The notes below the pieces were generated by a model, which searched no databases, was not told the origin of the DNA, and worked only from the letters and a program-made list of their open reading frames with translations. From Haliclystus octoradiatus (lineage: Eukaryota; Cnidaria; Staurozoa; Stauromedusae; Haliclystidae), in contig OU744453.1 in the NCBI GenBank assembly GCA_916610825.1, positions 3,788,724-3,852,723 on the forward strand: a DNA stretch of 64,000 nt. The letters run 5' to 3'. The translations under genes were made by a program, and so were the position numbers. The number at the start of each line of letters is the position of its first letter. The stretch's first letter is position 1. Of the stretch, positions 1-64,000 are shown one piece after another.

Positions 1-868
1 CAAAATCATCCTAAACGAAAAGACCGTCGGTAAAGTGGTACAGGTATAGTTCTGATTAGTCTGGGTAACTAAGCCTGACCAATGGCAGTTCTTTCTAGAA
101 GAAACATCTACCTTTACGCTGTTTACCTCAAATCAATAACCGATGTCTCCTTGTAAGTGGAATTCAATTTTCCATCGTATAATTGTAAAAGCTGTGAAGA
201 TGAACAAACAAACCATATAAATATTAAAAAATTATATTAGGCAGCGCAGCAAATATAAAAACTGGCAGTAGGTTTTTCACAGAAGTATGAAATTCTCAAA
301 GTCTTCATATTATTATACCAGCGTCCTGCAATCCAAAATCGCTTCAAGGCTGCAAATGTTAAACACAATACTTTGTATTGCTTGAAACAAGTTAAACTAA
401 ATGGAAACAAGAAAAATAATCTTAAATTTTTTTTCTTTCTAAAAGATGAGATTTAAAGTTCGCTTGTCAAATTTATCAATAATATTCTTACATTGTAACT
501 TAGACTGTCTTGAAACTCCATAAATTGCAAACTTTGATTATTATGCATTGATTCGTTCCATTGCAGATCAAATGAAATGGTCACCAATAATGTAGCACCT
601 AACAGAAATTTTTTACAAAATTAAATTAATATTTGAACTCAAATTTAAATATTTCAAAAATCTAAAACTGAAACTTAATTGATCTTTGTTTGTTCTACAA
701 TGAATCTATATATTTATTACTTGATGAATAATAGAAGAAATAAATATTTGTTTATAAGATAAGGTACATTTTAAGAAGAGATAGTGGTATAAGTTGTGCA
801 TGAAAATATTAGTAACAGTTACGGATGTGTAATCGTTTTAAATGATGACATCGGCATGATAATGTGTA
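1..868. other. AT-rich non-coding stretch
   Basis: No long reading frame, repeat or RNA gene is visible. It lies downstream of the last resolved exon of the minus-strand TSR gene, whose exon at 2289 ends in a splice donor. Any remaining 3' exon would be here or beyond the window, but I could not identify one. Confidence 0.5.
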
Positions 869-877
869 GCCTTTAAC

Positions 878-1092
878 CCCAATGGGGGGTAACTGGATTT
901 GAATTTTTACCCTTAAAAATGGAAAATCCCCGCATAGAGCCTATATGGAACCTGCACTTTTTGGGTAGCATTTTCACGTTTTTTATAACAATTTGAGTAA
1001 CTTTTGAAGGATTTTTGGGACTTTTCAGGTACTTCACACTTTTCAAAAGTGGCACCCCCGGGTTAATGCGGCACTTGGAGTTACACCCCGGG
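878..1092. mobile_element. hAT-like MITE, internally deleted copy
   Basis: This is a 215-bp copy of the element also found at 1816-2211 and 44249-44632. It is flanked by a perfect 8-bp direct repeat CCTTTAAC (870-877 and 1093-1100), the duplication size made by hAT transposases. It shares the family's 3' half (stretches such as GCATAGAGCCTATATGG) and the end ending in GGAGTTAC plus a C-rich run. Most of the 5' half is missing. It encodes no protein. Confidence 0.8.
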
Positions 1093-1100
1093 CCTTTAAC

Positions 1101-1807
1101 TAATTTTGTTAATATCTGTTGTATAATGATCGTTTAATAACGTGAAACTTGGAGTTACAACCAGAGAATGTGTCTTTCTTGACCTTCTCATTATTCTCAT
1201 TAATTTTGTTATTATACACTCAAGTAGCTCTGTGAAATGATTACATCGATCCTTTTTCCAAGCAGATGATATATTATATGGTATATCACAGTTTAAGTTG
1301 TTATTTTGAAATTTGGATATACAAAAATAATAATAAGATATTCTTTGGTGCTTGAAAAAAAATCTATTCAAAGGAATTTTAGTTATTTCCATTTTAGGAA
1401 ATATTAACAGAAGCTGAGAAATAAAACATTTCATCAAATATTAATAATTTACTATTAAAATATGGGGAATGTGTTCTACATAATTATTTATTTTTATGTT
1501 AATTTTCATCTTATCTGCGCTCCGTGAACCATATTATTTCTCTACTAGATGTCCATTTGCATCAAGACCTCAGGGAATCTTTCAATATACTGTTTTGATA
1601 TTTTCTACCTGAGGGATGATGAGTAAAACGGTACATAATATTCAATACAATGTATTAATGCATACTTACAACAAATTTCAAAAAGTCTTGCCCTCTAACT
1701 TCATTAAATCTCGCTATAACTAAACTTTACAATGATAAATATCCATACTGTTTTTGAACTGTTGATGTACCCATCATAGGTCCATGCATTTTTACAGTAA
1801 ACATTTC
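1101..1807. other. non-coding stretch between MITEs
   Basis: A minus-strand open frame at 1096-1437 has no domain, splice signals or recognisable composition. I see nothing else supportable here. Confidence 0.4.
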
Positions 1808-1815
1808 ATATCAAT

Positions 1816-2211
1816 CCCGGGGGGGTAACTCCCATACTGCTGCTATACGGGGACGTTCCACTTTTTTTGGGTCCATATTCCAGCTGAAAAATATACTTTT
1901 TGGGTAGGAAATTTTAGAATATCAAACGTTTTGGGTTCCATTTCGATTTTCTAGAGAATTTGGGAAAAAATTGAATTTGAAGGTTGAAAATTGAAAACTG
2001 GATGATTTGAATTTATCCATAAAAATGGAACATCCCCGCATAGAGCCTATATGAAAGTGCCCTCCCTTCACTTTTTGGATAGCATTTTCATGTTTTTTTT
2101 ATAACAATTTGGGTAGCTTTTACAGGATTTTTGGGACTTTTCGTGTACTTCACATTATTCCAAAGTGGCATCCCCCCATCAATGCAGCACTTGGAGTTAC
2201 CCGCCCCCAGG
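1816..2211. mobile_element. hAT-like MITE, full-length copy
   Basis: This 396-bp element is flanked by a perfect 8-bp duplication ATATCAAT (1808-1815 and 2212-2219). The ends are inverted repeats built on a G-run followed by GTAACTCC, with GGAGTTACCCGCCCCC at the far end. The body is low-complexity (TTTTGGGTAGG-like words) and non-coding. It is the best-preserved copy of a three-member family in the window. Confidence 0.85.
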
Positions 2212-2288
2212 ATATCAATTCATTGCAAATTCATAAACAGAATGTCGTCGTGCAGAGCTGGCTATCACAAGTCTATATTTCTCCTTAC

Positions 2289-2459
2289 CTGGGCATTCAA
2301 ATAGATTACATGGTATTGACACATTCTTATCCCCAATACATTCTAATCCACCATACGATGGCGCCGGGTTAGTGCAAAATCTCCAACGCCATTTATCACC
2401 ATAATTGCATGGTTTATTGCATCCTGTCCATTCTGTCCATGCCGTGAAACCTCCATCGA
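2289..2459 (-). CDS. TSR gene exon: fourth thrombospondin repeat
   Basis: A 171-nt phase 1-1 exon encoding one TSR. It opens with the WxxW motif (WTEW) and ends in a Cys-Pro-Gly boundary. The C-x-x-S/T-C O-fucosylation motif of classical TSRs is replaced by CNKPC. The acceptor is at 2460-2461 and the donor GTAAGG lies on the lower-coordinate side, so at least one more exon should follow. Confidence 0.8.
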
Positions 2460-5400
2460 CTGCAATTACATTGAATCAAGTCAAGAAATGTTTATGAGAG
2501 AATATTTTGGGCCGGTAAATAACTTCTACATGGACAAGAAGAAATTTATGTCAAATGAAAGAAATGATTAAAACTTCAGATTTTACCTTGATCAGTGTGG
2601 TTTATTGTTATTATATATACAGGCATTTCGAAATCTTCTAATACAGAAAACTCTATATGTTGGTCTTGATCTAGAATTATGATGCGATGAACTGGCTCAC
2701 TTAACTGTAACTTTCGTCAAGTGTGTTACTGAAACAACTAGAGTCAGGAATATTAACTAATCTATTGTCCATTATCGTCACAAGTCTTTCCCTAAGGTTC
2801 ATCTAGAGAGATAATGGATTATATGAATGACTGTTTTGACTCCATTTTGTTTTTATCAATTTTTGTCAGAAAGTTATTTGTGGAGTAAAATTGAAAGAAA
2901 AACAGCTAGCACAGTTATCTATATTACATGTGACGGTTAATACAACAACTCTTATTGGATTATAAACTATTTGAAAGAGGTTCTAGGAATTCATCTCTGC
3001 ATGATCTCATCGAGACAGTTATAGCTATTGCACGTTCTTTCCTTCCTTGATTAGTATATCAAATTTGCCGTATACGAATAATTAAGAGAAATAAAACAAA
3101 CTATTATAAAGTATACAGATCCTGGTCAAATGAAAGACATAATAGATACGATGACCTTGCTTTTCATTTCTTTAATATATAACTTTATATCAATGAGGAC
3201 AGGTGAAGGAATGTTAAGGCACGATATTACAAGGACGTTACATGAATTTATTCTATGCGCCACTATGGCAAATTGAAAACTTGTATGAACATTAGAGGTG
3301 GCAGTATAACCAAATCTTTCGCAAATCATTGCATGGTCATTACCTGGACAATTATCAATGCCACACATCTTTTCTTGGATGTATTCACCATAGCAAGGTA
3401 ATCCACCATAGGAAGGAGCTGGTTCCGAACACGTTCGATTCCTAACTCTAACACCACCTCCACAGGACACATCACAGTTAGACCACACAGACCATTGAGT
3501 AAAACTTCCATCGACTATATATTGATAAAAAAAAAAATTAAAATGCCATTGCAGTTAAATGTCGACATATGCTGAATAACGTTATCATGTCATTACCATT
3601 TGATAAAGAAATGGAATAATACTGTTGAGATCGCACGATGCAGTATTAAAATGTGAATATGCCATGAAAACATTATGAAATTGCATGATTCTTGCATGGC
3701 ATTGGTTTCAGTATAATAATTAATTATAGAGTGTTGCGAGCAATATGCAAGCAATGCCACATTCGTATAATTATATCAACCAACCTGGACAAAATACATC
3801 ATTACAGACTTGATTCTCTTTATGTTGACCAACACATGAATCAGTATCAAAACATCTTCTCTCTCTTTCCCTTACGCCTCCACCACATGTCACGTCACAT
3901 TGTGTCCATGGCAACCAATTTGTATATCCAGCATTTTCTGTATTGGAGAATGTAGACAACAAAAACAATTAAACTGTGGGAGAGCATTTCATACGTTTCG
4001 GCTCCCATTGTAATTTGACGTTTACAGATTTCTATATACCTAGGCATTTCAGTGATCGTTGATGTGTAATCCTGTAAATAACAGACTAGAGCATAATTTT
4101 CTTCTTAGATTTTTGTAGATTTTTAGGTAGCATTCACAGGTTTATGGAGCTCTTTGGAACGTCATCTATTTCAAAAGCTTTGCTTGCCCGCAATTAAGAA
4201 AACCCTTCCAACACGATAATGATGCAGTTAAATATTTGAAAGACATTACTATTTAAGAGTCATTCCCATCAGAAGCTCGTACCTGATGTTATGCAATTAC
4301 AAAGTCTCCTTTGAGTTTCATATGGTTTACACGAACAATTCACGTATTCTGGTACCAAAACAAACCCAGAACATAACGATGACGTCATATCATATAGTGG
4401 ATGACAGGAATCACTCCATAATAAATCAGATTGATCTGCCTCGCATTGTATTGATAAATCCAAGAAAGCATCTATTGTCTCACCAGTTTGAATATCAGCT
4501 GAACATTGAAACTCTACAATAGAATAAGAGACAAAGATGAGGCAAAAGACTTTTTCCTTTACTCATATTTTCGCGTGATTTGAATTCAGAAATTTTCCTC
4601 CAAAATTCTATTTTCCATAATTGCTACCTCAAATAGTTTATTCAAGACAAAAAGTATACCCTATAACTAATAATGCGACAAATGTATATCAACTGGAAAA
4701 ATAATTAAGAATAGAAATAGATCTTGCTTTAAGAGCTTTGCATGAATTATATGACTCACTGTCTCTATTACAAGCTGATACGCAATCTTCTCCAGGATTT
4801 GAAACTCTCAATCCGGGACAAGGCCCAAGATTACATGCTCTAGATTGAAGTAAGTCTCCTTCACAGTCTCGTCCTCCATTTTGTGGTATCGGATTATTAC
4901 AATATCTTCTAATTTCTTGAACACCTTCACCACAATCCTTACTGCATGCTGACCATGAGCTCCATTGATTGAATTTACCGTGGACTGGAGGACCTAAAAT
5001 TAAGAATATAATTAAAATGGAAATTGTAATATTATTGAAAACATTATATTCCTTCGTTCTGTAGTGCATTACTTGTTAATTAGCCACAGGTAGATAAGTT
5101 CATGAACTTTTACTACGCCTTACAAAACGTATAGTAAATAAAGCGGAAGAAGTTTTGTTGTCATATTACCTGCGAATACCTCTGCGTAAGGATCATCATG
5201 ATCTTCTTTTGTTGTTGAACTTTTTTGAAAAGACGATGAAGGAGAGATATCAATAGATGTTTTGAATGAACTTGATATCATACCTTAAAGTAGCAAAGCA
5301 TTGGGAATCAATAATAATCAATTTGAGCTGATAAACGAATAGCACGTAAAATTTCCTTGAACTATGACGAGTAATCTATGACAGGGCGTTGGATCTCTCC

Positions 5401-44999: not shown

Positions 45000-45282
45000 A
45001 AATGGAAATTATGATATTTAAAACTATTTGATAGCTATTATAAAGAGGCAAACTGCACCGTATTAGCACTGCTGGTTTTAATCTGATTTTTACCTCCATA
45101 AAGCATATTCGATTGCATACTATTCAACCCTAGTTCTCTCTTTTGAACAAAATTTCCAATAATTCAAATGCTTCTTCTCTTGTTATGCTTTTGAACATCT
45201 TCCATTGTGTCAACATGGGCCGTCACCAGCGGGATGTTTTGAAGGTGTAATATAGGCTGTGGGCCAATTTCGAAACAATTTC

Positions 45283-45563
45283 AAAAGGCTATACAGTTTA
45301 CGAAGAGGAAGGCTCAATTACCTTATCTTGAAATATATACTATTAAAAGTGTTTTCCCAATTTTTAGCATATTTTAATTCCCCAATAAAGTAGTTATCAG
45401 CATTTAAATATTGCCAGTATTACTCCAATTCCTGCCGCCATGTTTACTTGCTTTTTGAGTTTTTGGGGCAAGGTTCACCTTCACGTGCCTCGCTTGCTCG
45501 AACGGAGGTGATCTGATTGGCTGCATTTCGATGACAACAATCGGCGTTCATAGCAACATAATG
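45283..45563 (+). repeat. left terminal inverted repeat
   Basis: It begins AAAAGGCTATACA and ends CAACATAATG. It is the reverse complement of 52368-52648 over its whole length. It contains an AATAAA (45384-45389) that could serve as a poly(A) signal for the LEKR1-like transcript, whose stop is 283 bp upstream. Confidence 0.9.
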
Positions 45564-45687
45564 GAGTTCGTATATTTTTTTGAAAATTGGTAATTTAACG
45601 AGGAAATTGCACAATCGAAGAATGTTAACTAATTAGGTAATATTTTCAGAATTAAAATGTTTTCCAGATTTATTTACTGATGAAATC

Positions 45688-47184
45688 ATGGAAAATAGCG
45701 TCAACGAAGATGCAGTAAATCAAAATAATGTTTGCTTGATTCATTTTCAGGGCTGTATTGGGACTTTACATGCTTTCACAAGTAAAAGAATTTCTACTTT
45801 TTTATCTCGACGAGAAGAATGGTTGGAGTTCAACACCGTGCAAGGAACAGTTGCTCCAAGGTCTTTAACAATTTATCGAAGAGAACGAGCGATTTTTCGA
45901 AATATTTTTACCATGAAGGGTGCTACCAGCGTTTTACTGATAAAACACAGTTTAAAAAGACATGTAATGTACAGCCAGTTCCGAAAAAAGTAACAAGGTC
46001 ATCAAATTCGTCTTCTATAAAGAGATTGACTAATAGAACAACAAACGTACTCCCGAGAGTTTGAATTGTATGCAAGAAAGGACATTCTTATTTTTTCAAA
46101 AAAGTAAGATTAAATTACATACTTTTAAGAGCATTATTACTTTAATATAACAAATGTTTATATTTTTTTCTTTTTCTTTTCTTTTTCTTGATTTTACCGT
46201 ATTCAGAGTGAACAATAAAACGTGGCTGATAATTTCCGCAAAGCAACTTCTTTTGAAGCAGGTAGGCTATGTGAGGCAGCTGGGAAGAAGAAAGATGAAC
46301 AAGTTTTGATGTATATCCGAATTGGAGACTGCGTGTCCAATGAAGTGCACTATCATAAAAGATATTATGATAGCTACACTCGTTTTCTATATATCAGAAA
46401 GGAGGAAGAAATCGTTAATAAGAAAGCTGCAGCTGGATTATATGAACCTTCATTCGAAATATTTTGCAATAATATTATCACAGAAAAGATTTTAAATAAC
46501 CATGAGCCATATACAATGAAAGACCTTGTTTAATGAATTTGTTGATATTGTCAAAGAAGTCGAATGTTTGGAGGCTGATAATTACAACAGATCCCGCTTT
46601 AAGCAAAGAATTGTAGAGGAATTTCCCCAGCTAATGTTTTTCCAACCAACTAACAGAAGCAAAAGCGAAATTGTTTACTGCAGTGATCTCAATCCAGGTG
46701 CAATGTTAGAAGGTCAAATGGATTCTGATGGGGATGTTTATAATTTTGAAGACGATAGCGGCGATGAACTTCCCGATAACGACCCAATGTCAAAAATCAA
46801 AGCTGAAGAGCATACAATACTTTACAAAGCCTCCCTGATTTTACGGGATACCCTAGAATCTGTTGAAAAATTTTCCGAAGTATGGCCTCCTACGTCAACA
46901 GATATCAATCTAGATAATGCTAAGCAGTTTGTGCCGTCGAGATTATATGATTTCCTTTTATTGATTACGAGAACAAGAACTGATTGTATAGATCCTGACA
47001 CGAAAATTGAGCATAAAGTATTATCCATTGCTCAGGATATGATATATATTTACCACCGTGGAAGAAAACAAACGCCCAAGTCTATTGCATTGAGCATGGC
47101 CGTACGTCAGATCTCTGGCTGCTCAAGTATTATTGATATTCTTAGCGGTTTTGGTCATTGTTTCTCTCATTTATCGACTCTAAG
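45688..47184 (+). pseudogene. Academ-like transposase, N-terminal part
   Basis: Frame pieces run in order: VCLIHFQGCIGTLHAFTSKRI (45730), a frame change near 45870, then FYHEGCYQRFTDKTQFKKTC (a Cys/His zinc-finger-like motif), a stop at 46062, an apparent intron, and ADNFRKATSFEAGRLCEAAG from 46222. Another frame change near 46526 precedes EIVYCSDLNPG, then RGRKQTPKSIALSMAVRQISG, ending at a donor at 47184. Two frame changes and two stops show decay. Confidence 0.7.
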
Positions 47185-49042
47185 GTATAGTATTTTTAAT
47201 TTACTGTGATATACGTATAATTTCTTTAACGCTCCGAATAAAATGTATTTATCAGCGTATATTTTCATTTAAGGTATGAAACTGACTTGGCAAAGGCTGA
47301 TATTTGCGATGGAATACCAAAGCAGTTGGTCGCTGATAGTCACACTATGTTGGTATTTGATAATGATGATTTTGGAGAGGAAGTAAAGCAGGCGACGCAT
47401 ATAACTAACGGCATAGCAATCCAACCTATATCCGCAATATCAAATCAAGAACCCGTTACATGAAATTCAATTATAAAAATACGACGCAAGACTCTAGATT
47501 ACCAAGAACCAGAAATACTGCCATACTCTATCATCTAGAAAAAGTCCCCTGATTTTTCAGAAATAAATAACGGTGAAAACATTCGTGACTCGAAACCAGA
47601 TATTCTAGAAAAGGAAAACTTACTTGATTTCGCATACTGTATTATATCATAAAGATGATAAGAGGGAGTGAATTTCCAGACTGGACCGGCTATAATACAA
47701 TTCTCAATAGCGAAAATATCCCCTCACTCTGCAAAATTACTTATCTCCCTGTTATTACAGCTACGGAAACCCAATATTTTACTGTATATATACTGTTTTA
47801 ATGAAGTGTTTGGAATTGCAAAAGTATTTAAAGTGACCCGGAATTTCAGCTGCCTTTGATTAGGCAATTTATGCCAAAGCACAGCAAATTCGCTGGGAAA
47901 ATATAGAGTTTTTAGATAATTTGGTATTCCGTCTTGGTGAATTCCACACTGCAATGTCGTTTTGTGGAGCAATTGGAAAATTATTTCGCAATGCCGGACT
48001 TCACGTAACTATTGTATGAGGTTTTGACTAAGCTCAGATTTCGGAATAATCCTATACTGATACTTTCAGTTTTCAATTTGTGTCTGAAAATATTGTATTT
48101 TAGGACATTCTAGTTGAATCCGGTATTACAGATCAGGAGTCTGTCAATGGAGTACTGAGTGGGAAGTTTTATAATGGGAGTATCCGTTGTCACATGATTA
48201 TGCATGAGGCTCTTCAAAGATTACGCTTTGAGGCTTTCATGGATAGCTGTGAAGAACCATTTCTATCAGAAGTTCAATTCAAAATCTGTAAATTATCTAA
48301 TTTATTTCCTAATCCTGACTTCAACGAGTACTTAAAGGATGAGGATTTCAAGACCGTTTGTGATATTTATCATAATTCTGCGGAAGATATGTGTCGTAGT
48401 TCTCCCACTTTTTCACTTTGGTCGTCCTACATTGCTAATACAGGTGAGGTCTATAAATCTAGAGTTTTCTTCTTCTATTCTGTACATTTTTTTATAAGTA
48501 ACCACCTCAATATTTTTGACTTTGCAGGCCTATTGATGACTTTTGAAAAAGCAACGCATGAAAATAAATAGGAATTACATTTATCTACCTTGAGATCCAT
48601 GCTACCATGGCTTTTTGTAGCTGACAGAATCCATTACTCCCGTTATGGTTCTGCGTATTACCTTGAAATGATTTCGTTGAAGGATACTCATCCAGGTATT
48701 AATAACGATTAAAGTTATTTAAATTTAGACGATTTATAATTCTAAAATATCACGAAGGTTTTCTGCGATCTGATTGGTCGGAAGAGCGTGCATGAAATCC
48801 TAGGGTAAAACATGGCTCCGAAAACCGGGAAAAACCGCAAGCTTCAAAAAGTTTGTTCTGTGATAAAATACAGGATTTATAACTTTTTGATAACAATCCA
48901 ATAAATATCTCAATAATGGCTACGATTTAAAAAACGACATTAAGCACAAGATGTTTATATTTATTGAAAAGCGTGGTGAATGAGTTATTGGTCGTCTAAC
49001 ATGCAAAATAAAAACACAGAATGAAGACAATTATAGGCAACG

Positions 49043-49143
49043 TCGCTGTTTCAAGGTAAACCTAAAATTTAAATAACAATTACTGCATTAATTTGCTAAA
49101 GGACTATTGTACCACTTATATTATAGACGCTCTTGTATATGTC
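49043..49143. repeat. dispersed repeat copy (pair with 63905-64000)
   Basis: CGCTGTTTCAAGGTAAACCTA and roughly 75 further bases recur at 63905 with scattered differences. This copy is inside an Academ-like intron; the other runs off the window. Confidence 0.65.
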
Positions 49144-49281
49144 TTTCTTTATTCGACAATATCTATCTTGTTGTGGGATTCTCTTTGCTTGGTTTATGAA
49201 TTGAAATTGAATTTTAAATTGTGAATTCATGAATTGAAAATTCACCGTCGAATGAGATTCCGACATTTGTTTTATTTTAGA

Positions 49282-49361
49282 AAAGGGTTACCACATGCTT
49301 GCAAATGTTTGTATTCATAGTAAATACGAATACAAACATGGCAAGTATTTGGTCACCCTTT
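49282..49361. mobile_element. 80-bp near-perfect palindrome in a transposon intron
   Basis: The arms read AAAGGGTTACCACATGCTTG against CAAGTATTTGGTCACCCTTT, with a centre GTTTGTATTC-ATAGTAAATAC-GAATACAAAC. It can fold into a long hairpin. It is either a tiny foldback MITE inserted into the Academ-like gene or a structured intron element. Confidence 0.7.
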
Positions 49362-50429
49362 AATGATCTTTAAATGTATGCAAACCATATTTTGCAGAGG
49401 TTTATGAATCGTTAAAAAGTCAGTGGACTGTCCAAAGACAAGATAAATTTGGATTTTCATCAACTGCTTACGATCAAACCATCGAGCAAACTGCAAACCG
49501 CGACTCTAAAACGAAGGGTACAGTATTTAACATTTAAATTATATAGGTATACTGAAAATCATGTATAGGCCCGTTAATGAACTAATAAGGTAACATAATT
49601 CATGTTGTTCTTTATTATAAGGTGGTTTGATCGGTTTCACACTTAATAAAGCTGCAGTACATCGTTGGCTCCTTGCCCAACCTGAGCGATCATCAATTAT
49701 ACATCAATGCCAATATGGCTGGTATTAAATCTGAAGCAAGGTATAAGCAATAAATCTGTAGTAATGAAATGATAATCTCTATAGATGTGAAATGCAATGG
49801 ATTTACCCAAACGTTTTCCCTTCAACAGAAAGAAAAGAACCTCGATAAGACACAATATCAACGACATGAAAATGAAGTACAGAGTTTTTTATCAACTATA
49901 AACTCAATGGTCAAGCCATTCGATTTAAATGAACAGCAACTAGTCCAACTATCTAGTGGTATAATCGACCCAGATGAAGTTGCAGAAGGTTTACTAAAAG
50001 CAGTTGAGATTGGTGAAACGATGTTTCAATAGTTTGCTAAAGATAATTTGCTCGGTGAAACCCCCGATTCATTTGTACCTTTTACTAAAGCTCAACGGCC
50101 GACTTTTACGACCAATCTCAAGCCTACTAGTTAACAACGTCGAAAGGAAAGGTGATATCTCTGAAGACCTCGAGAAACCTCTGTGCAAGATTGCTTTTGT
50201 TAGCTCGTACTCAGGACATTGACCTCAAGACTGTTCTGTCTCATACTCTCTTGATCCGTACCCTCTAAGCTTATCAACGATGGACGGCTGTAGGACAAAA
50301 ACCAATAAAGCGAAGCTTTTGCATATTTTAGAAGGTAAATACTTTTAAAGACTGTTTCGTCTTTATATCGAGAAATACTATATCTACATTACATTATTAT
50401 TTTATGCTCTACTACATTTTATCACCAGG

Positions 50430-51211
50430 TTCATCACCGAATTGTATGGTTCCCTCTGTAGAAGAAAATGGGGCTTTGATGGTCGATGCGATGGCTCTTT
50501 TGCAAAAGTTGGGTAAAATCCCAGACACTTTTGATGGTAACTCTTCCATGGTATTATCAATATTAAAATCACAAGCAAAAACATTGTGCGTTAAACGAGT
50601 GGATTTTGTTTCTGATACATATCCACTTATAAGTATTAAATCAGGCGAGAGCCGCAAAAGGAGCAAACGTCATTAAAATATATGGAGATGATTGATGATT
50701 GCGGTATTTTATGAATGCTTTCAATTATGTACTTCATTCATTCATTTATCCATTTATTTTTTTACAGTTGATCAGAAAAGTCCCGTTCAATGGGCAAAAT
50801 ACCTGAGACATAGATCAAATAAAGAAGCTTTGATATCTTTTTTGGTTGATAGCTGGACGAAATTGCAAGATTTGCCGTTCCAGCTCTACTGCACGATTGG
50901 CTCAAATTGTATCTGCTTAACTCCATGCAACTGTAACAGTACTGTTGTTTCAGCACCTGATGTACCTGAACTTCCTTCCAACCACGAAGAAGCTGACACC
51001 AGACTTCTTCTTCATGCCCAACACGCACCTGAAGCAGGTTATGGTATCGTTATTATCTCAAGTCCAGACACAGACGTCCTGGTCATGATGACTGAGATGC
51101 AGTTGAAAACAAAATGCGATTTGTACCTTTCAACTGGTTCTCGTGAAAAAGCAAGAATAATCAACGTAGAACATTGTCACGATCATTGCGCAACGATATT
51201 TGCAGGAGCTT
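50430..51211 (+). pseudogene. XPG/FEN1-like nuclease part of the Academ-like protein
   Basis: The first piece has VDFVSDTYPLISIK (the N-terminal acidic motif position). After an intron ending near 50766, the second piece has NHEEADTRLLLHAQHA and IVIISSPDTDVLVMM. The E-A-D-T-x4-A and S-x-D-x-D pairing matches the internal metal-binding motifs of XPG/FEN1 and asteroid-type nucleases. A later piece (GCDSVSSFFRKGK, near 51340) fits the G-x-D helix-hairpin-helix region. The motifs are intact here although the whole gene is broken. Confidence 0.7.
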
Positions 51212-51478
51212 GATTTGATTTATTCGTTTACTTGTAAATGATCAGCAGTCACAAATTAAAGGATGATACTCTAATCTATGCTCCAATGAAGACGTATTTA
51301 TTAACAAATGCTCACACTTTTCTTGTAAATTTCAGGTTGTGATTCAGTAAGTTCTTTTTTCAGGAAAGGTAAAGATAGCTGCTGGAAACTGTTTCTTGAC
51401 CTAGAAATATATCCTTTTCAAAACCTTGGGTGCCAAAATTTATTTACGGATGAAGTTTTTACGTGATAAAAAATATTT

Positions 51479-51963
51479 GTGTGTAAACTTTATGGTCAGC
51501 ATACTCAGTCAAATGTTGACGAAGCAAGATTGAAATGTTTAAAAGCGGAAAATTTTCGGGTGAATCCCTGCCCCCTAATAAAGATTGCCTGGAAAAGCAT
51601 GCAAAGCGGGCTAATTATCAGGCGTACATATGGAAGCACTGCCTTGAATCCAATATCAACGTTGGAGACGCTCACATTCACAACAATGGATGGATAAAAA
51701 GCAACGACGATGCATTAGATATTGATTGGATGGAAAACAAACCCGTTCCAGATGCTCTTTTGGATAACGTTAATTGTGGCTGTAAAAGTGGCTGTGTTAC
51801 GAATAGATGTTCTTGCCGCAAATCCAGTGTCAAGTGCAGCGAGTTCTGCAAATGTTCGAATTGTGAAAATTCAGAATTAAGTAGCGTTATTGATGCTGAC
51901 GAAACGATTAATATTGAAACTCAGCTGCATTATCACGTGGAAGATAAAGAACAAGACATTTGA
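51479..51963 (+). pseudogene. C-terminal CXC cysteine motif of the Academ-like protein
   Basis: Two overlapping frames (QHTQSNVDEARLKCLKAE, then LPPNKDCLEKHAKRANYQAY) show one frameshift near 51540-51560. The end holds NCGCKSGCVTNRCSCRKSSV and CSEFCKCSNCEN, a tesmin/TSO1-type CXC repeat, which binds zinc and DNA in other proteins. The stop is at 51961-51963, and the poly(A) signal AATAAA is 48 bases on. Confidence 0.7.
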
Positions 51964-52010
51964 GAAGTTACTGACACAGAAGATTCCGATCAAGGTGTAT
52001 AATTTTAAAC

Positions 52011-52016
52011 AATAAA
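52011..52016 (+). terminator. poly(A) signal of the Academ-like gene
   Basis: AATAAA shortly after the CXC-encoding frame, in the sense direction. Confidence 0.6.
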
Positions 52017-52367
52017 AATGTAACTTTATTGAAGAAAAATTGGTTCAAATTATTATATTATCTGACTCGTGTTAATTATATGCATATAATGTTAAGTAAG
52101 AGCACCTTATACGGTTACCAATATACAGTTACATTTTTATAATAAACATTATTAAATTAAATCCTTTAAAAATAAAAACTAAATACTTAAATATACATAT
52201 TAAATTAAATACTTTACTAATATATAAAACCTTTGCAAGGTTATCAAGAGCAGTTATTGATCTTAATCCTTTCATATTTGATATAAAGCCACCAATTCAT
52301 TTTTATTAAAATAATACGCAAATTTATAGAAATTAGATCGAGTCTGCACGCAGGCTATGTTCGCTGG

Positions 52368-52648
52368 CATTATGTTGCTATGAACGTCGATTGTTGTCAT
52401 CGAAATGCAGCCAATCAGATCACCTCCGTGCGTGTAAGCGAGGCACGTGAAGGTGAACCTTGCCCCAAAAACTCAAAAAGCAAGTAAACATGGAGGTAGG
52501 AATTGGAGTAATACTGGCAATATTTAAATGCTGATAACTACTTTATTGGGGAATTAAAAGATGCTAAAAATTGCGAAAACACTTTTAATAGCATATATTT
52601 CAAGATAAGGTATTTGAACCTTCCTCTTCGCAAAGTGTATAGCATTTT
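52368..52648 (-). repeat. right terminal inverted repeat
   Basis: Reverse complement of 45283-45563, ending TATAGCATTTT. Its inner edge is at CATTATGTTGC. Confidence 0.9.
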
Positions 52649-52659
52649 ACGGTTATACA

Positions 52660-54185
52660 GACTCCCTTGTATTCGTCCCACGGACTAGTCCCCCCTCTCT
52701 GAGCAAAATTATGTTGGCAAATTCTGGTTCTTCGATATCTAATCTGACATTATCACTTATATTTATCAGCCGTTTTTTATTATCTGCAAGGCTCTGAATG
52801 GCAATATAAACTTGAAATTCACTAATTTATTGGAAATAAACTTATTATGGCGTCATTGACCGGCAGTCGCTGCATGCTCAATTTCAATTAAGCTTAGCGT
52901 AAATTCAACGATCAACGTTAGTCATGGCTCCAAATGTCAGTTTCAGCATGGTTTCTGGTACAGAAACAACACGAACAACTAACTCGCACGAGACTCTAAG
53001 TGCGTAGAGCCCAACGGTCATTTCACCCTTTTAACAAAACAAGAGATAATATCACAATGCCTCGGATCATGCAATAATCATAATAATTGAAGATATCAAC
53101 GAGAATAGACATGACTCACCTGAGATAAAATTTGATAGTAGAGCTTCTGTTTGTTACTAGCTCAGTCCACCAGTTCAGCAATGTTAGCAAAACGTAACGA
53201 TAGATAAATCAAGTAGCAAAAATCAAGACAAGTATAATATGCTAGTCCTTCTTCTGGAGTATAAGCAAAGAAATTTGGAACGAGAACACAAACAATATAT
53301 TAAATTGTTATAATAAAAATAGTAGCATTTGCTAATAATCTTGACTTGATATTAAATTTAACGTCTACCATGAACGACAATAGGATGCTGAATTCGACAA
53401 TAACATTTCAACCGGAAAAGTATACTATTTAGAACACTCTTTAATGTCATGATAAATGATTTGTGTAACTAATAACGTAATGAATTCGATCAATCTGAGT
53501 GGTTGAAAGCTTTGACTCTAAATCACAATCTCAACAAAGAACTAAACGAGGTTCGAAAACGCAATCGATCTTTCAATTCGAAGCTTGCATCACAAATTGA
53601 GGATTTCCAAATTGTTTTCAGGTGTTTTCAAAAACATAAACTTATGAGTAGTAAAGTCTTGTAAACTATAAAAAAGCCTGATAATCCTTATACTAAGCAA
53701 TTGGTGCACAGTATTCCTTGAATTATTGTTATTTGGCGTACTATAGGTTCACTCCAGGAGAAAACTGGAAGATGAAAATCTCACGCGGTGGCGTCTAATG
53801 AGTTTCTGATGTCTTTTCTTTTTTCCTTACGTAGCTGCTTATACGTGAAATATAAAAAGCTTATAGATAACTGTGCGCCCGTTGCTTCTTGTTATAACTT
53901 TATTTAATGACAAAATTGAAAAATTCAGCATTGTGATCAATTGCGATGAGTGAAAGTGTAATTAACTGAATAACCCTTTTTAGTTTAATTGTTTATGTCA
54001 ACAATTGTTAAGACTTTCTTATAGAATTTCGTCTATTAAATGTCTTTTAATTATAGAAAATTATTAATTAACAACCTGCATGATATATCTAATCTATTGA
54101 ATTCATGATAATAACATATAGCTTTAAATAAATCGAAAATATTACATGTTAAAATTTCAACTATACAGATATAATTCAATATAGA
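52660..54185. other. intergenic stretch with one coiled-coil-like ORF
   Basis: At 53479-53621 an open plus-strand stretch encodes a charged helix (SEWLKALTLNHNLNKELNEV and KRNRSFNSKLASQIEDF) and ends at CAG before GTGTTT. It could be an exon fragment of an unknown coiled-coil gene, but there is a stop just upstream and no acceptor. Nothing else is recognised. Confidence 0.35.
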
Positions 54186-63816: not shown

Positions 63817-63904
63817 AAAACAGATATAAATACAGTCATAAGATTGAGCTGATATCATTTTCCACTTTTGCACATTTTATTTGTATACTCGAACTTGCAC
63901 AAAC

Positions 63905-64000
63905 TTCGCTGTTTCAAGGTAAACCTAGACTTTATATATCAATTTCTAAATTAATTTCATGGATAATTATTGTACAATTTATATTAAGGACGTCCTTGTA
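63905..64000. repeat. dispersed repeat copy cut by the window end
   Basis: It matches 49043-49143 (CGCTGTTTCAAGGTAAACCTA, then TTAATTT-, ATTGTAC-A-TTATATTA-GACG-CCTTGTA) with scattered changes. The element continues past the window. Confidence 0.65.

Follow-up and report, generated by a model that had tools for sequence, protein, structure and literature searches.

A probable AcademX-type transposon with a probably flipped interior in Haliclystus octoradiatus and its chimeric relatives

A stretch of 64,000 nucleotides from the staurozoan Haliclystus octoradiatus (the window; C10:3788724-3852723 of a 262-Mb genome in 33 contigs) carries a transposon copy of 7,435 bp at 45253..52687 (coding strand +), which is probably a dead AcademX-type cut-and-paste DNA element with a flipped interior and with relatives that exchange parts, sequence of a second family, D, having entered the family of the window copy. 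An earlier note, made from the letters alone, had described the element as Academ-like. Its assignment to AcademX is supported by target duplications of 3-4 bp in 10 of 12 two-ended elements, by DDE-type motifs and by a nuclease-like part together with a CXC cysteine cluster, while the XPG-type nuclease named in the same note is without a significant match. The window copy itself is ordinary and matters mainly for having led to chimeric relatives, two copies (M and N) in which ends and first exons of the window family are joined in frame to the catalytic half of family D.

Ends, arms and target duplications

The most visible part of the element is a pair of inverted arms at 45283..45563 (+) and 52368..52648 (-), each 281 nt long and together 95% complementary, as the earlier note had reported in speaking of equal length and few mismatches. 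It placed these arms correctly but took them for the ends of the element and so missed 30 + 39 bp of terminal sequence. Flank alignment of the copies showed that homology extends outside the arms, and the ends set by comparison with sister copies and by a genome-wide tip pattern lie 30 bp further out on the left (45253..45282, +) and 39 bp further out on the right (52649..52687, -), in two blocks that are unlike each other and that run up to the tip TAGKCYGTGGG. The left arm has 12 genome matches among the best candidates, which comprise the two ends in the window and sites on C2 (two elements), C4, C5, C8 and C10; full-length matches (281 nt) are 91-96% identical. Since the arm recurs at other genome sites, the pair is not due to chance.

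The same end layout, with TAGKCYGTGGG followed by an end-specific block and then the long repeat, is shared by the window family and the family of loci L037-L040, in which one tip, of L038, is damaged. TAG also starts the ends of remoter families, namely D (TAGTCCGTGAG and TAGCCCGTGGG), L041 (TAGTCCGCCGG) and L042-L043 (TAGTGGGGG). A genome search for the tip pattern TAGKCYGTGGGMCRA gave 32 matches, and the backwards-read control gave 1; eight pairs among the 32 face each other at a spacing of 3.4-9.1 kb. In elements built in this way, with a common tip, unlike blocks and long arms, the arms that are seen first should not be mistaken for the ends.

Target duplications were scored in 12 two-ended elements of five families (the window copy with L009, L010 and the C2 copy, L011+L012; L037-L040; D; L041; L042-L043), the facing tip pairs at C2:36097442 and C7:8299815 and most single tips lying outside this set. 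A duplication flanks 10 of the 12, nine of 3 bp (TTG, GTG, ATG, TAA, GTA, GTG, ATT, TAA and TAA) and one of 4 bp (ATCA, in L042); given the local base composition, the chance of at least 10 in 12 is approximately 8e-15. L038, with its damaged tip, has none (TAT/TAC), and no duplication longer than 4 bp occurs in the 12 elements with 8 bases compared per side, so that the 9 or 10 bp of AcademH was not encountered. The earlier note had proposed duplication length as a test of the Academ assignment, and on the relatives the assignment passed with 3-4 bp, the window copy itself having no duplication. A search with the right flank of the window element returned only the element's own site and a dispersed repeat, by which the missing duplication is not explained. 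This repeat of approximately 185 bp lies just right of the element, at 52854-53040, and has 676 first-look candidates in the genome; of 40 that were scored, 39 are non-self at 79-86% identity. Five of its copies stand on C10 (1247613-1254440) at a spacing of approximately 1,667 bp, as in a tandem array.

The broken gene and the probably turned interior

The gene of the window copy is decayed and multi-exon, and its parts follow in the order of N-terminal region, DDE-type motifs, nuclease-like part with a FEN1-style order of motifs, and CXC cluster; the split gene over many exon-like pieces reported earlier, with its nuclease-like motifs and cysteine cluster, is real and broken. Its frames are interrupted, while relatives hold long open frames, some of them intronless. 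In these relatives, the N-terminal region is followed by DNxD, Dx(A/P)xY and DQxxE, then by D, DxY, SIK, EEADT, DT(D) and GCD, and then by the cysteine cluster. DNxD and Dx(A/P)xY are present in 6/6 and DQxxE in 3/3 of the aligned sequences that cover them, and all three are recognisable in the window; these three conserved acidic motifs would form a DDE active site. No Pfam family marks the proteins of the relatives clearly, the only match to the transposase region being DUF6589 at E 0.059, below the cut-off, and no helicase family occurs in the Pfam matches, taken up to E 1, of 10 proteins from relatives or in those of nine window pieces. Intronless Academ-like genes of 1,508-1,527 aa (L041, L042 and L043) coexist in the genome with many-exon ones (the window family and L037).

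All exon-like pieces lie on the plus strand and were placed by tblastn with relatives. The N-terminal region comprises a frameshifted exon 1-like piece (45637..46142) and an exon 2-like piece with one frameshift (46195..47185), which was also compared with sister copies and contains, at 47087-47100, the block where the chimeric copies pass from one family to the other. The transposase pieces, supported by motif alignment, begin with 47269..48016, which holds DNDD at 47356-47375 and the second D motif at 47855-47875, with a stop codon directly behind the D of the latter. A middle piece seen also in sister comparison (48104..48697) is followed by a 622-bp insertion (48740..49361), which is not in the C2 sister copy, and then by a further transposase piece (49370..49710), in which motif alignment places the third acidic motif, DQTIEQ, at 49472-49492. 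A linker piece between transposase and nuclease-like part (49820..50342) has three frame-breaking indels in comparison with the C2 copy. The nuclease-like part (50368..51354) shows VDAMAL, VSDTYP, HEEADT, SPDTDV and GCDS in motif alignment, and the C-terminal piece (51505..51963) contains the CXC cluster from approximately 51775. Within the 622-bp insertion, a 99-bp stretch is 79% identical to the very end of the window (63902-64000), and the insertion is probably another repeat.

The nuclease-like part is probable but unproven kin of FEN1/XPG. In a profile alignment against 33 FEN1 proteins from archaea, the acidic positions to which catalytic roles belong in FEN1 recur in order (N-terminal D, second D, EA in EEAD, each D in DTD, and D in GCD). 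The alignment is marginal (P 0.05, probability 1.1); 6/150 column shuffles and 0/150 shuffles of 20-column blocks score as high, and the reversed alignment scores lower. The XPG-type nuclease of the earlier note thus agrees with the motif order but has no significant search result behind it. A PDB sequence search with one relative and with a 9-row profile gave nothing up to E 10, and PF00867 (XPG_I) has five genome matches, none of them at the listed sites of Academ proteins. A single-sequence structure prediction for the window's nuclease-like piece was unusable (mean predicted local distance difference test score, pLDDT, 35.7). For PF03638 (Tesmin/TSO1-like CXC), with a curated cut-off of 23.5 bits, the window piece scores 18.8, L037 20.2 and L044 26.0 bits, and L010 has no match; the CXC motif described earlier is present as a cysteine cluster, but in the window it falls below the Pfam cut-off that L044 exceeds.

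In the mechanism proposed for such elements, the N-terminal region would bind the ends, and the DDE-type core would cut and join, leaving the 3-4 bp duplication seen in relatives. The FEN1-like part might trim flaps or gaps at the joints, and the CXC cluster may add DNA binding.

The window copy is dead and decaying neutrally. Relative to the C2 copy, its exon-like pieces have 12 indels not divisible by three, some of which may belong to the C2 copy, and the ratio of nonsynonymous to synonymous rates (dN/dS) between the two is 1.07 (461 codons, exons 1-2), as expected for dead copies. Twenty diagnostic columns between 45256 and 45300 separate the 5' from the 3' ends of other copies (three 5' ends and five 3' ends), and 18/20 are swapped in the window copy, outside 45301. 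Its left tip and terminal block are of the type found at the 3' end of other copies; its right tip and block, judged by sister copies and diagnostic columns, are of the type found at the 5' end. From 45564 inward, the arrangement is normal, two left-side columns excepted, and no diagnostic column lies between 45301 and 45563. On the simplest reading, one crossover between the arms, within 45301-45563, turned the interior round. After its insertion, the window copy would have gained the 622-bp insertion, had its interior turned by recombination between its long arms, and decayed neutrally.

Two other histories of this copy have to be weighed. The element might join parts of two insertions, by ectopic recombination or by a transposition with ends taken from two copies. 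The swapped blocks and the unlike flanks would then have one explanation, the flanks (ATA and GTC) being mismatched though copies are only approximately 5% diverged; this history is a serious possibility, though a somewhat doubtful one, since it needs two events, where a single arm crossover accounts for both swapped blocks. The earlier note had instead proposed that the inverted repeats are better preserved than the genes and that the element was mobilised in trans, its arms kept and its gene lost. Divergence from the non-chimeric sister copies is alike in the arms (91-96% identity) and in the longer interior blocks (92-96.5%); the premise fails, mobilisation in trans was dropped as the cause of conserved arms, and a non-autonomous window copy is highly improbable. 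No family of short copies is present among the 12 best arm matches, while an internally deleted sister copy (L009, with element positions 118-4156 gone) has a TTG duplication, so that deleted copies exist and their movement in trans is possible.

Further observations concern the sister copies and related families. L009 is 3,375 bp long, has a shortened 5' arm of 117 nt that is 98% like its 3' arm, and may be a non-autonomous form. The C2 sister copy (L011/L012) measures 13,570 bp and has two insertions of approximately 3.3 kb each relative to the window copy. A related family (L037, L040 and the places of L021 and L022), with 66% identity in the nuclease-like part, has several near-identical copies; the arms of the L037/L040 family are 99.6-100% identical, and it looks recently active. 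Searches for relatives in viral contigs gave 35 and 41 pattern stretches, none of which was confirmed.

Chimeric copies and rival explanations

Copy M (L010; C2:2744073-2751013) has a GTG duplication and arms that are 98% identical. Compared with the window copy in stretches of 150 columns, gap-only stretches aside, it is 86-99% identical over the first 1.9 kb and 92-96% over the last ~0.45 kb, and 45-72% in between. The middle matches element D (L050-L052; C2 near 26.04 Mb) at 84-88% identity, except for ~1.2 kb of M not in D. Element D has an ATT duplication and its own 282-nt arms, 88% alike, and its arm showed no convincing similarity to the window arm (best E 0.11). The proteins agree with this division. 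In exons 1-2, M has 86% and 92% identity with the C2 copy, 66-91% with the frameshifted window pieces and 31-35% with D, the value for D climbing to 65% in the final 36-residue stretch, at the switch. In the later exons, D comes closest to M, at 77-86%, before the C2 copy (42-62%) and the window (35-56%). The exception is the nuclease-like part, which is partly missing in D and where M and D give two overlapping matches of 72% and 45%.

The 5' switch preserves the reading frame and lies in a short stretch of coding sequence, which reads GCATTGAGCATGGC in the window (47087-47100). The 3' switch lies directly behind a complete D-type right tip, where the sequence becomes that of the window family again, starting from the equivalent of 52176. 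In copy N (L014 on C5), of which one end was found, the two junctions are likewise present, the first of them with a small gap nearby. Read from these alignments, M and N share one in-frame chimera of window-family ends and exons 1-2 with the catalytic, nuclease-like and CXC exons of family D. The flank of N differs from that of M, so the chimera moved at least once. The D right tip, intact at the junction, implies a nested insertion followed by homologous deletion, which would explain both junctions: a family-D element would have inserted itself in the non-coding 3' region of an element of the window family, recombination between the similar second exons of the two would have deleted the intervening DNA, and the product, with window-family ends and N-terminus and D's catalytic, nuclease-like and CXC half, would have moved again.

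Between M and N, the core has a dN/dS of 0.31 (636 codons). When D serves as outgroup, 9 synonymous and 7 nonsynonymous changes fall on the M branch (p 0.0024 against neutrality). By these counts, purifying selection continued to act on the captured core exons once the fusion had taken place, on at least one of the two branches. The dN/dS of 0.27 in exons 1-2 between M and the C2 copy (488 codons) predates the fusion. A broader proposal is that AcademX families may evolve by modular capture and that the hybrid protein was active and moved itself; it is held tentatively, as only slightly less probable than its opposite.

Its nearest competitor has the chimera carried only in trans by intact window-family elements, with a hybrid protein that never worked. 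The ends are those of the window family, a nuclease-like motif of M is changed (DTNV) and N is broken, all of which fit; the core dN/dS between the chimeric copies and the 9:7 of the M branch after fusion do not, and carriage in trans is possible but rather doubtful. The origin of the chimera could also be sought in copying from family D during gap repair in a window-family element. In that case, the 5' switch would fall, as it does, in a short block common to both families (GCATTGAGCA-GGC), as template switching gives, yet in both copies a complete D-type right tip stands at the 3' junction with window-family sequence directly after it, as for insertion, which makes gap repair unlikely. Long arms and cysteine clusters are also found in the KDZ group. 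Membership of such another superfamily, or of a separate new one, agrees with the want of a clear Pfam family beyond the sub-threshold DUF6589 match, but the duplication in 10/12 and the transposase with a nuclease-like protein agree with AcademX as printed in PMC10045372, and a different superfamily is very unlikely.

Against the reading of an AcademX-type element with a flipped interior and a working chimera stand several points. The window copy is flanked by ATA and GTC and not by a target duplication, although a simple flip would be expected to preserve one; its nuclease-like part has no significant sequence match to XPG/FEN1 in any search, the 6/150 column shuffles included; and the AcademX assignment rests on a comparison with printed descriptions. 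Only two copies of the chimera are known, and D lacks ~1.2 kb of the middle, so that the D-M match comes in two main parts. The N branch (8 synonymous, 18 nonsynonymous, p 0.17) fits neutrality, copy M now has DTNV instead of DTDV in the nuclease-like part (D -> N), and exon 2 shows 2 synonymous and 20 nonsynonymous changes between M and N (201 codons), which speaks against a working hybrid; polarised over 200 codons, the synonymous to nonsynonymous counts are 1:2 in M and 1:13 in N. Between M and N, exon 2 is less diverged at synonymous sites than the core is (p 0.003), which is unexplained.

If the proposal of capture by an active hybrid is true, exons 1-2 would be a separable module for end recognition, able to function beside a core that is only approximately half identical to the original. 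The chimeras are a natural domain swap, predict which part of the protein reads the ends, and show a concrete route by which long-armed transposons can trade catalytic modules. That the N-terminus and ends stay together also follows from the proposed route, and is not in itself proof of their interaction. Searches of the open-access literature found neither an experimental study of an Academ transposase nor a chimeric Academ element.

Comparison with known systems

The nuclease-like part resembles FEN1/XPG in the order of its acidic motifs and differs in that the first Glu of FEN1 EGEA aligns with the His of HEEAD, besides the non-significant sequence match. The cysteine spacing of the C-terminal cluster fits the Pfam model of the Tesmin/TSO1-like CXC domain, from which the window piece and L037 (under the cut-off) and L010 (no match) depart and L044 does not.

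Academ is counted among the DDD/E superfamilies in PMC9587614, and with 7,435 bp the window element has a length near the range of Academ elements, whose mean in bivalves is 5,565 bp according to PMC10294476. In the scheme printed in PMC10045372, AcademX has a duplication of 3 or 4 bp and AcademH one of 9 or 10 bp, seemingly tied to the encoded nuclease and helicase, respectively. AcademH belongs to the same superfamily in that scheme and differs from the present elements in its longer duplication and its helicase; duplications here have 3-4 bp, and Pfam scans of the relatives showed no helicase family. The likeness to AcademX, as that paper describes it, consists in the 3-4 bp duplication and in a nuclease, here a nuclease-like part, beside a DDE-type transposase; the terminal inverted repeats of AcademX have their counterpart in the 281-nt arms (95%) with TAG tips. 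The difference from AcademX lies in the state of the window copy, which is dead and rearranged and has no duplication, and in its sister copies, which include chimeras between families.

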